Part shown: piece by piece, positions 48,797-53,686 of the stretch
Position numbering within the stretch: the stretch's first letter is position 1
Layout: each line of letters begins with the position of its first letter
Assembly (NCBI GenBank): GCA_030549775.1
Contig: CM060171.1
Coordinates: forward strand, 62,554,360 to 62,618,359
From: Tamarix chinensis
Lineage: Eukaryota > Streptophyta > Magnoliopsida > Caryophyllales > Tamaricaceae
Length of the DNA stretch: 64,000 nucleotides
Reading direction: 5' to 3'
Translations under genes and position numbers: made by a program
Notes under the pieces: generated by a model
Told to the model about the DNA's origin: nothing
Database searches by the model: none
Seen by the model: only the letters and a program-made list of their open reading frames with translations

Positions 48797-49110
48797 CACT
48801 ACAAAATAATTGACTTTTGCCAATAGAAACTTAGTCACAGATATTTTTTCTATTGGTAAAAGCAACTAATACCAACAGATAATTTTCTGTGGGCAATAAT
48901 ATAGTTTTTCCAACAGAAATTTTTTATCTGTTGGTATTAATATGTTATGCCAACAGATCTTTTATCATCACTTATATCTGTGGTTATTAGTAGCATTATA
49001 CCAACAGAACTAATACCCACTTTTACATCTGTTGGTATTAGTGTTTATGAAATTCAATAATAATATTTGTTTTTATATAATTTTAATAATGATTAATTCT
49101 ATTCTTTTTA

Positions 49111-49120
<10 letters not shown>

Positions 49121-49144
<24 letters not shown>
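49121..49144. repeat. (AAT)n microsatellite inside CACTA
   Basis: About eight AAT/ATA triplets. A second run, (TAT)n, lies at 49507-49540. The whole 49050-49800 stretch is extremely A/T-rich. Confidence 0.8.
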
Positions 49145-49502
49145 TAAGTCATTAGTCATTTTTAGAAATAATAGTTTACATATATTATTATTAATTATTA
49201 TTTTATTTCTAATTTTTATATTAATATTGTTCATAATGGCGTCTTTTAACAATTATAATGAAATAATATATATTATATCTACTACCACTTACTATTAAAT
49301 TAATTTATTATTAAATAATACCAATTATCATTCAAATCTGTGTTATCTTAACAATAATAAATATTATCAATAATCGTTCACATTATTAATAATATATTAG
49401 TAATTATTAGATACTATTATTAATTTATTTAAAATAATGATTCATATTATTCTTATTAATATAATTCTTTATTAATTATTACTAAGAATAATTATTTTAG
49501 GA

Positions 49503-49539
<37 letters not shown>

Positions 49540-49829
49540 AAAAAATATTATTACTAATTGTTGGAAATTATGATTAATATTTATATTATTCATATTTTTA
49601 TTTATTTCACATTATTAATTATTTTTAATAATAAGTATTATTTTATTATAAATTATGATTAATATTATCTTAATAATACATTATAAAATATTAATTTTAT
49701 ATTAAATATTTTTAAATAATACTAATTATTATTTAATAATATTATTAGATAATTAATAATATTATTATTATAAGTAGTAAAAATAATTACATTATTTGTA
49801 AGAAAAAAATTATTTTATTAATTCTTTCA

Positions 49830-51055
49830 AAAATGTTTCCGAAATTCTTTATATAGCTATTTTATTAATTTTAAATTTTCGGATCCTTTTGAAATAAATT
49901 TTAGATAAAATTCTTCCAATAATAAATTTTGATATTTAGTATTTTGTTTAATACTTCTATTTGAAAAAAAAACCCCATCGACTGGTGCCCCGAGGCCCCC
50001 GACTGCCCCCTCTTCTTTTCATTTTCTCTCTTCTCTCCTTTCTCTCCCTTCTCTACTCTGTCCCTTCCCGACCCCCTGCTCCCGTCCTGAGCCAACCGCA
50101 GGCCAAACCCCAGCCTGCCTCCTTCTCCCCAGCTTCTCCCTGCCCCAACCGCCCCGCCAGTCGACCGCCACGGGAGACGCCGCAGCAGCAGCCGAAGCAG
50201 CCGCAGCAACCAGCAGCAGCTGCGCCGCCGCAGCAACAGGAGTAGCGAGCAGTAGCGCAGGTCACACCGCCACCGCCCGGTCACCACCGACGTCTCCCGA
50301 CCACCGGCGAGCATCCCCCAACCTCCGGCAAAGCTTCTCCAGCCTTCCTTGCTCCGATTTGTTGATTTTCGTTTGGTATAAATTTCTGAAAAAACCCTAA
50401 TAATTATTTAATTAATTGAGTATGATTTAGCTTGTGATAAGATAAATTAATTGTTTGGTTATGTATATATGTGCTGTGAGATCGATTTGGATAAGTTAAT
50501 TGTATGGTTTATATTGAAATTATGGAAAATTGAATTCTTGGCCGGGTTATGCCTGAATTTTTCGGATTCACCCGATTTGTCGATTTTGGATAAATTGATT
50601 ATATAATATGTTTTTAAATGTATTTAATTTCATATCGGAAGTGTTGATTTGGGAAAATTGTGCGTAATTGATCGGAATTGGATTTTTAGGTCAAAACTCT
50701 TGCGGGACTAAATTGGATTGTGTAATCGGGTCATTTTATTCAATTGAATATATATTTTATATTAGAATATATTTAATTACATTTTTGAACCATCAATTTA
50801 TATAATTTAGAAAGAATTGATCGGATTTGTGTTCCGGATTCAAAAACCCTAATTATGTTAAATTGGGTATTTCTTTTATTGGTTTTGGGCAATTGATTAT
50901 ACGATATGTTATAAAATATATCTCATTTTATTTCTAAACATTTAATTTAAATAAATTAATAGAATTCAACCGAATTGTATTTTCGGGCCTAAAACCCTAG
51001 ATTTTAAGTGAAATTATAAAATTGATCATTTGTATAATTATTTTTCTAAAATTAA
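49830..51055 (+). mobile_element. Probable LTR-derived segment inside the CACTA element
   Basis: AT-rich sequence leads into a C/T-rich run (50015-50060), then a GC-rich, CAG/CCG-rich block (50060-50340), then CTGAAAAAACCCTAAT and AT-rich sequence. This is the same order as the U3, pyrimidine tract and GC-rich leader of the solo LTR at 35532-40266 read on its own strand. It may instead be a captured 5' exon. The 94-aa and 137-aa frames here are compositional. Confidence 0.4.
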
Positions 51056-51103
51056 ATTTATAGAAATAGTTGAAATGATCCTAATTGCATTCTAATACCT
51101 TTA

Positions 51104-51127
51104 ATTGATAGTTTTAAAACTATCAAT
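51104..51127. repeat. 24-bp perfect palindrome between 21-bp direct repeats
   Basis: The palindrome has half-site ATTGATAGTTTT. It lies between two identical 21-bp sequences (51060-51080 and 51136-51156, ATAGAAATAGTTGAAATGAT plus C). The second copy ends where transporter similarity starts. Confidence 0.9.
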
Positions 51128-51155
51128 TTGAGGTAATAGAAATAGTTGAAATGAT

Positions 51156-51683
51156 CAAAGTATTGGTCTTGTTTACGGAGACTTGAGTAATTCGCCACTC
51201 TATGTCTATAAGAGCACATTTCGTGGAAAGTTGGATAACCATCACAATGAGGCAGCCATATTTGGCGTATTTTCTTTGATATTTTGGACCCTAACATCAA
51301 TCCCTCTGATCAAGTATGTCTTCATCGTTTTAAGTGTTGATGATAACGGTGAAGGTTAATATTAAGTTGCCCTTTGTTGTATTTGTGCCATGTTGTAGCT
51401 TTGTCCTTAAGGTTTGATCAATGTTTCTCCCTTTTTAGGTGGACCATTTGTGCTCTATTATCTGTTTTTCCGTCATGCAAGGTTCAGTATGCTACCAAAT
51501 CAACAAGCAGCAGATGAAGAACTCTCTACCTATAAATACGATTATTCAACACCAGCTCCGGCCAATTCTTCATTGAAGAGATTTCTAGATAAGCACAAGA
51601 ATCTATGAACCGCTCTACTACTTTTGGTTTTTTTTGGTACTAGCATGGTCAATGGAGATGGTGTCCTAACCCCTGCAATTCAG
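51156..51683 (+). pseudogene. Captured exons of a KUP/HAK/KT potassium transporter gene
   Basis: Two exon pieces with an intact GT-AG intron. Exon 1 (51156-51354) reads QSIGLVYGDLSNSPLYVYKS, then FRGKLDNHHNEAAIFGVFSL, IFWTLTSIPLIKYVFIVLS and DDNGEG. Exon 2 (51439-51683) reads GPFVLYYLFFRHARFSMLPN, then QQAADEELSTYKYD, SSLKRFLDKHKNL, a stop, then TALLLLVFFGTSMVNGDGVL and TPAIQ. This is the N-terminal part of plant KUP/HAK/KT transporters (GDLGTSPLYV in the first membrane segment, DDNGEGGTFALYSLLCR, GDGVLTPAISV). The intron is 51355-51438. Inactivated by the stop (51606-51608) and by missing the remaining exons. Acquired by the CACTA element, probably by transduplication. Confidence 0.9.
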
Positions 51684-51881
51684 GTGTCTTTTTATGTTTG
51701 TCATTTTCAACATGCACATATTTCCTTTCATGCTCTAGTTCCATTATATCTTACTTGTTTGGCTTTCTTGACGATTTTTATGCAGAATCATATAACTCTA
51801 TCTTGTATTTCATGCTTTTTTGGTTTGAAGTGGGACAAATCCATTTTCTTTATTTTTTTAATTATTAATTTTTGTTTGTGG

Positions 51882-51934
<53 letters not shown>

Positions 51935-53290
51935 TGTATGATAAATCTATTTGTGGCAAGAGTTTTGTTCTTTGTTCAGTCTGGAGGATGATGACCATCG
52001 ATTGTCTGTGCCTTACCTTCTGAACTTGGGTTCTGACAGGCAGCACAAAACGTCTATTTTGCTCCCTAGAAGATTAAATTTCCTAGTACTATCACATGAG
52101 ACTTAATAAATCAATATTTTGAGGGGGTTATTTCCAGCCTTCACTGAATTATAACTTCCCTTTCTCTCCAAGCAGGCGCTCAATTGGCTACAAACAGAAA
52201 GTCTTCTACATAGTCACCCATGAACTTGGTTATGTATCTACCACCACCAACTACCAATACTTCCTTAGGTGCTAGACTATGGAGAAACCTCAACAAAATT
52301 TCTGTTTGACCAATCCTTCACGATAATTTTGAGATAGATGGGTAGGATGTCTTATTAACTAGGAAACTAGTAGGTAATATCTTGGTTGGAAGGTGGAGGG
52401 AAGTAAAGAATGGAAGTACTAGGGGTGTGTGGAGCTAGTATGTTTTCTGAGCATATTTTTTGGAGGTGTCATTTTGACTATTTTCCTTACAGTAGTGAAC
52501 TACAGAAACTATCATTTTCATGTGAGGAAATTTAGGGAAGAAAAAATAGTTTGCTCCATAACAAAGTACAGCCCTGCTCTCTCATGAATGCACGTGATTC
52601 TAGAGTGGTTGATCTTCTTTATATGTACTCATTAATGGCTATCGAATTTTGAGCTGCCTTGAGTGAATTTTTTAGCACCATCTGAATGTTCACTTTTATG
52701 GGTCAAAAAAAATTATTTCGATAAAAGTTTTGATTTGTATTTCTTGCCTTATCATGCTTCTCATGCTTTGTGTGTTTTCATGTGTTTGAAATATTAGTGA
52801 ATTTATCTCTGAAAAGTTTTCTTGAATTAGCTAACCTTTTATTTCTAGCAAAGTTGTATGTGGGGCTAGTCTTGCCACTAGTTTGGGCCATTACTCATTG
52901 TTTGTGTTATTAGTATTGTTGTTGTTTGTGTGTTTAGTTACTCTGGTTACTATTATTTATTCTTTCATTCTTATCCTAGGCTAATTTATATTAATCTAAT
53001 TAAGTTACATGCATATTGTTTTAGGGAATACATCCTGATAATTATCAAAGAAAATATTGAAGACGCAGAAGTCATTGGAGATGCTAAATAGGATGGGAAT
53101 GACGAGGATGGTGTTTGATATGTTAATGAAGATGTCTTGTATGTTAGTATAGGTTAAAAGTTGTATATATATTCTACCTATAAGATTATTATCGTTTTGA
53201 TAGTTAAACTAACGAACGATGATTATGTATGGTGTACTATATTTTATATAAGGATAAGTTATTGTTATAAGTAAATATTGCTACAACAGA
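51684..53290. other. CACTA interior of unknown origin
   Basis: Begins as what should be the next transporter intron. Includes an (AT)n run at 51884-51931. No further transporter exon recognised. A short frame at about 53025-53085 (YILIIIKENIEDAEVIGDAK) is unidentified. Confidence 0.4.
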
Positions 53291-53686
53291 TATTATGGAC
53301 ATTATTGTTGTTTTACTAATAGATAATATATATATATATATTTTGGATAATACTTTTAGTCACAGATTTTCTTTTTTGGGTAATAGTTTTAGTCACAGAT
53401 ATTGTTTTGTGGACAATACTTGTAGTCACAGATATCATTTTGTGGTTAATACTTTTACTCATAGATATAATTGTGGGTATAAATTTTACCAACAGATAAA
53501 TATCTGTGGGCATAAGCAACTAATACCAACAGATTATACATATCTGTGGGTAAAACTTTTAAGCATAGAGTTTTTACCCACAGATTTGTCACAGAAAAAT
53601 TTCTGTTGGTAAAAACTTTTGCCAACAGAAACATGGCTTTTACCAACAGATAAGACCTGTTGGCAAAAGTCAATTATTTTGTAGTG

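Follow-up and report, generated by a model that had tools for sequence, protein, structure and literature searches.

The way in which DNA transposons acquire host genes remains a matter of debate, and a 64,000-nucleotide stretch of the Tamarix chinensis genome (contig CM060171.1; hereafter the window, positions numbered from its first letter) raises the question in a form that can be traced: by what route did part of a potassium transporter gene come to lie between the ends of a CACTA transposon at 48797-53686? The element is a complete, non-autonomous CACTA element, and the family to which it belongs is a high-copy Pack-CACTA, itself an already known class. The family probably acquired its gene DNA by gap repair, moves by transposase supplied from other elements, and carries the captured exons as passengers; taken as a whole, this is the reading that we judge likely. 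Since the donor gene, the unfilled sites and the filled sites are kept together in one assembly (1,323,312,015 bases searched, in 28 contigs, twelve of them long), the joins can be read base by base, which makes this an unusually traceable case of a known process.

The element and its contents

A preliminary description, made from the letters of the window alone, had held that the element is delimited exactly, by perfect terminal inverted repeats of at least 25 bp and an AAT duplication. Its ends do lie at the predicted positions, with perfect repeats of 27 bp and AAT on each side. Together with terminal repeats that start with CACTA, a 3-bp target duplication and subterminal repeats near both ends, these are the marks of the CACTA superfamily. 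The only open reading frames of at least 120 amino acids are two that overlap on opposite strands in the GC-rich part, and the plus-strand one, of 155 amino acids, has no Pfam match at E 0.01; the element is therefore taken to be non-autonomous. As expected of such a member, no TNP2-type transposase was found within 48797-53686, either among frames of at least 120 amino acids or by the Pfam search of the plus-strand frame. The features are listed here in order; groups A, B and C are the sets of elements described below, group A being of the window's own kind.

48794-48796 (no strand): target site duplication AAT, left
48797-48823 (plus): left terminal inverted repeat, beginning CACTACAAAA, 27 bp, perfect
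48834-49035 (no strand): left subterminal repeats (CCAACAGA, TCTGTTGG, GTCACAGA and similar)
49990-50400 (plus): GC-rich part of the backbone, judged by eye
51136-51156 (plus): 21-nt filler at the left junction of the capture, the same as 51060-51080, with its final ATC also in the donor
51154-52977 (plus): captured genomic DNA of a KUP4-type gene, donor locus L039:2034-3816
51154-51354 (plus): part of exon 2, without its first 40 bp and acceptor site
51355-51438 (plus): intron 2, complete, 84 bp
51439-51683 (plus): exon 3, with an in-frame TGA and a 1-bp deletion
51684-52977 (plus): first 1.3 kb of intron 3
52978-53686 (plus): right arm of the backbone, common to groups A, B and C and to the ATG7-bearing element L094
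53359-53650 (no strand): right subterminal repeats, motifs as on the left
53660-53686 (minus): right terminal inverted repeat
53687-53689 (no strand): target site duplication AAT, right

The backbone at 49990-50400 is far more widespread in the genome than the transporter piece, with 3566 candidates (40 scored).

The donor gene

The search for a donor by alignment, which the preliminary description had proposed, led to a gene at C4:63238384-63246913 in the same genome, to which 51154-52977 is 94.3% identical over 1,825 aligned columns. The donor reading frame runs from ATG to stop through nine exons, with limits set by hand, and encodes 783 amino acids. The protein is 79-85% identical to its listed relatives across 97-100% of its length, the nearest named ones being from Caryophyllales (Sesuvium and Opuntia, 84%; Nepenthes, 83%). 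The gene is a KUP/HAK/KT potassium transporter gene of the KUP4 type. The captured exons themselves, entered as a typed peptide with X at the stop, match the Pfam family K_trans at E = 4e-33. Among the K_trans places listed, only one copy of the segment, at C4:63239326, is accompanied by later exons of the same gene, in order and on the same strand, as judged by eye. Where they align with the donor, the three paralogue loci L010-L012 reach no more than 68-80% identity.

With the donor identified, introns retained and a non-coding Kimura two-parameter (K2P) distance of 0.031 between the window copy and the donor, the claim that the KUP/HAK/KT piece was captured by a DNA-mediated route holds; capture from a processed mRNA is rejected because the introns are present. 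The interval first assigned to the transporter, 51156-51683, covers the coding part and falls short of the full capture, 51154-52977. Nor does the segment continue as a normal gene outside the element. The match to the donor stops at 51154 and at 52977, both inside the element, and the reading that a normal gene at 48797-53686 includes the segment is rejected. The window copy is broken as a coding sequence: it has an in-frame TGA, and one base pair is deleted close to where exon 3 ends.

Copies of the window's kind

A search of the genome with 51150-51690 returned 91 candidates, of which 40 were scored, the donor among them. The left capture junction of group A occurs at 69 places including the window copy, 67 of them exact, on all twelve long contigs, against 0 for the control. 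Right ends were also collected (40 scored of 1,394 candidates); the 30 fetched are those most like the right end in the window, and they are for that reason unrepresentative of the family as a whole. All 30 carry part of the capture and terminate in TTTTGTAGTG, with 30 different flanks. Several share internal deletions, from 51217 to 52415 (ten ends), from about 51396 to 52734 (six) and from 51438 to 52590 (two). The proposed search for further copies of the element thus yields many, each at its own site.

Twenty group A copies fetched at both ends measure 3,515-4,897 bp, and the 3-bp target duplications match in 19 of them, the remaining copy agreeing at two of three bases. Elements with the same capture junction, internal-deletion derivatives included, thus stand at many places with their own duplications. 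A later independent insertion of the transporter segment into an element, the other outcome by which the capture could have been refuted, is rejected on the same grounds, since 19 of the 20 sampled copies hold the segment within elements that have matching 3-bp duplications of their own. What defines a Pack-CACTA is accordingly found here: a piece of a host gene lies between CACTA ends while its donor stands elsewhere in the genome, and the identical capture recurs in copies with their own target duplications, a record of past movement.

A second left junction and an adjacent downstream piece

The same gene was sampled in other ways. A second left junction matches at ten places, one of which is the donor, leaving nine others; two additional places from the search with 51150-51690, C5:51421193 and C8:77008622, begin where group B and the donor begin. 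A further group B element, L073, is too changed for the junction pattern; it is complete, with TAA on both sides. The two group B loci that were read, L033 and L073, carry the donor from about 1995-2005 to 3816 and have the right junction of group A. In the left arm of L073 the outermost 0.9 kb is 90% identical to the window element and the inner part 71%; the inner part of L033 is 74% identical. A tree of 17 A copies, two B copies and the donor sets A apart from the donor and B (support 100/99), and the branches where A, B and the donor part are short in that 20-sequence tree.

Group C carries the adjacent downstream piece of the donor, 3874-5179. A query with that piece gave 94 candidates, of which 40 were scored, one being the donor. 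Among the 39 others, 33 start exactly at donor 3874, and 37 end exactly at 5179 and two at 5175; the whole stretch is held by five, the rest being without some part of it, internal or at the left. The left-junction pattern of group C matches 75 times (control, 0), of which about four matches look poor by eye, giving about 71-75 places. The pieces of A/B and of C are adjacent on the donor and do not overlap, being 57 bp apart (3817-3873), and none of the 39 scored non-donor places of group C reaches into or beyond that gap. Fragments of a single gene in this way stand at roughly 150 places (69, at least 10, and about 71-75). They can easily mislead gene annotation, and they offer a natural test case for whether fragments of this sort give rise to small RNAs directed at the intact transporter gene.

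Two group C loci, L071 and L072, also carry sequence of the autophagy gene ATG7, recognised by eye in both. The donor was thus sampled at least once more, by way of a downstream piece inside an element that holds an ATG7 piece as well. The ATG7 peptide of L072, typed with X at the joints, matches NCBIfam TIGR01381 at E = 2.1e-20 and 72.7 bits, against a cut-off of 571 for the full-length protein, and has no Pfam match at E 0.01. Carriers of the ATG7 piece are at C6:36145300-36151300 (L072), C5:655500-660500 (L071) and C6:85238900-85245400 (L094); genome-wide, 40 of 46 candidates were scored. Since related elements carry this piece and at least 40 similar places were scored, captures by the family extend to more than one host gene. 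The right end was seen in L070, L071 and L094.

An unfilled site and the mode of capture

The last of these elements, L094, bears directly on how the capture took place. It has the ATG7 piece and a right end, and no match to the donor gene. Its positions 1852-3131 correspond to 1332-2612 of C72 (L072 reversed) at 94% identity, and 3190-3579 to 3932-4323 at 92%. Between the two matches L094 has 58 bp where C72 has 1.3 kb of the transporter gene. At the group C insertion point, 40 of 191 candidates were scored, and 34 of them, L094 included, cross it in a single alignment that leaves no space for the transporter piece. Three more match only to the right of the point, as expected of C copies (two are whole C places, one is shorter), and three are split for other reasons. 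The unfilled state is common, and group C is most simply derived from it. Capture inside one element with little replaced, as gap filling implies, is what group C displays beside L094 and the 34 of 40 scored places.

The left capture junction in the window has its own signature. The source of the 21-nt filler lies 76 bp upstream, and a match as long was found in 0 of 1000 simple letter shuffles. At other joins a few shared bases can be seen by eye: GAACC at the left of B, TAT at the right of A/B and CAT at the right of C. It is the unfilled site of group C and the templated filler at the window junction that lead us to favour gap repair with template switching. A break would have opened inside an element, transporter DNA would have been acquired during its repair, and the polymerase would have jumped to the transporter gene as a new template by way of short microhomologies. 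The products would then have been moved by the CACTA (TNP2-type) transposase of other elements, with the exons as passengers. Frames of the TNP2 type (PF02992) are abundant, with 6820 candidates in the genome. Ten of the 150 scored share 337.5 bits and an open frame of 804 amino acids, a pattern that suggests recent CACTA activity.

Several observations pull in the other direction. An empty site was seen in group C alone; for group A, to which the window copy belongs, no precursor lacking the capture was found, and what that group offers is the templated filler at its left junction. For group C the direction from unfilled to filled rests on parsimony. The junction microhomologies other than the filler are by-eye readings, and the right join of group C includes a short stretch of unassigned sequence. 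Nor was any transposase gene tied to element ends of this kind, or an autonomous partner that has them identified, the ends of the ten equal-scoring TNP2-type elements not having been examined. Finally, the per-copy ratio of nonsynonymous to synonymous change (pN/pS) relative to the donor is below 1 in 21 of 21 exon copies, which is readable as constraint, although the donor's own changes are counted in it.

Alternative origins

Why should two pieces of one gene lie side by side? We tentatively suggest, as a reading more likely wrong than right, that a related element once stood in intron 3 of the KUP4-type gene, within donor 3817-3873, a stretch absent from every copy seen, and that repeated break repair copied its right flank (group C) and, separately, its left flank (A/B). 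An excision footprint in donor 3817-3873 was sought by eye, and tandem triplets there are at about the chance level by a rough estimate. If the suggestion is true, gap filling with DNA from the element's own surroundings is a means of capture to which a plant CACTA family returns repeatedly.

Somewhat less probable is a hybrid origin, in which two elements flanking a stretch of gene lost complementary ends and afterwards transposed as a single unit, the two-neighbour model for Pack-CACTA (Catoni 2019, as described in the available portions of PMC13317346 and PMC8903248). Groups A and B have one right junction and different left junctions, and their inner left arms are only 71-74% alike, the pattern to be expected had a single right partner combined with several left ones. 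On the other hand, another element has the two flanks of the C piece in continuous sequence apart from 58 bp, and two independent truncations would rarely meet so near each other. Two neighbouring elements were dropped as the first choice for group C once the contiguous site in L094 had been found; the joins of that group fit gap repair better than the two-neighbour model.

We consider still less likely a single larger capture, spanning about donor 1995-5179, that internal deletions would later have broken up into the pieces of A/B and C. Such a history would account for pieces that are adjacent, non-overlapping and 57 bp apart; deletions within the capture are common in this CACTA family, and the right arms do not clearly separate the groups (B-C distances 0.048-0.066, C-C 0.070-0.077). 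It sits poorly with the fit of the C piece into the 58-bp gap of L094, with the absence of any entry into or passage beyond the 57-bp gap (0 of 39 scored non-donor places), and with donor distances that are greater for C (0.057-0.061, three copies) than for A (mean 0.042, 19 copies) or B (0.037 and 0.042). An action of the captured DNA on its parent gene, by way of small RNAs or of chimaeric transcripts, is the most doubtful proposal, for which the orientation of the examined pieces (like the donor gene relative to the element) and the mostly 94-96% identity of A and B copies to the donor can be cited, against a donor open from ATG to stop and exon changes that look neutral, though neutrality in coding terms does not exclude small RNAs.

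Age and selection

Over non-coding positions the mean K2P distance of group A to the donor is 0.042 (range 0.028-0.061, n = 19), the two group B copies give 0.037 and 0.042, and the mean between A and B is 0.052. For group C the distance is 0.057-0.061 (n = 3, exon included). Right-arm distances are 0.070-0.087 for A-C, 0.048-0.066 for B-C and 0.070-0.077 for C-C. Distance to the donor thus suggests that the C capture is older than that of A/B, while right-arm distances do not separate the groups clearly; the samples in both cases are small. At substitution rates of 2.5-6.5e-9 per site per year, a K2P of 0.042 corresponds to about 3-8 million years.

Exons were read in 21 copies, with repeat loci of one place dropped; these were found by similarity, which favours intact ones. 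No in-frame stop is present in 16 of the 21, and 16 have the 1-bp deletion towards the close of exon 3. Derived changes among copies were tested, since per-copy pN/pS includes changes in the donor. They number 128 (94 nonsynonymous, 29 synonymous and five stops) and fit the expectation from the non-coding spectrum of 25.8% synonymous and 4.3% stop (p = 0.48). Change per site is similar in exons (0.29) and in non-coding sequence (0.23). The captured exons accordingly look neutral among these copies, and retention of the exons by selection is unsupported.

Comparison with known systems

The likeness to Pack-CACTA elements of Arabidopsis, rice and maize is close: as described in the part of that account available to us, these too have CACTA ends, a 3-bp duplication and unspliced host gene fragments, which in some elements come from more than one gene (PMC8903248). 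Here, by contrast, one junction alone occurs in 69 places, and the empty site of group C fits gap filling better than the two-neighbour model. In the Tpn1 family of Ipomoea nil (CACTA/En-Spm; 339 copies with 3-bp duplications), the interior is replaced by host sequence and the ends are kept, as in Tamarix; the accessible portion of that report mentions neither a single captured piece present in dozens of copies nor a pair of adjacent pieces from one gene (PMC5105172). Gene capture by CACTA elements within Caryophyllales is described for Chenopodium, where the genes are others (Neprosin, AP2) and the excerpts at hand give no comparable donor, empty site or copy counts (PMC8978399). Tgm-Express of soybean is likewise a CACTA element carrying host gene fragments and, from the available text, was reported for its chimaeric transcripts, whereas the present family is known here from DNA alone (PMC1947982).

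The gap-filling model for animal Pack-TIRs, in the sections seen, involves a small internal gap, microhomology at breakpoints and foreign filler DNA, as found here; those elements are mostly single-copy, whereas in this plant CACTA family the filled and the unfilled states are both multicopy (PMC8277862). Literature on CACTA with potassium transporters, on Pack-CACTA and on Tamarix with CACTA gave, in the portions available, no description of this family, and in the main text of the Tamarix chinensis genome paper, to the extent available, CACTA and HAK are absent (PMC10370455).

Elsewhere in the window

Low-complexity open frames rich in Ser, Phe, Leu and Pro lie on the minus strand at 25402-26665, 34830-35327 and 39293-39862; they are probably simple-sequence stretches and not genes. 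On the plus strand, 55880-57217 is an open frame of 445 amino acids with no Pfam match at E 0.001. Retroelement frames occupy 6233-9043 on the minus strand, with a zinc knuckle followed by reverse transcriptase, RNase H and integrase, an arrangement typical of Ty3/Gypsy-type long terminal repeat retrotransposons.

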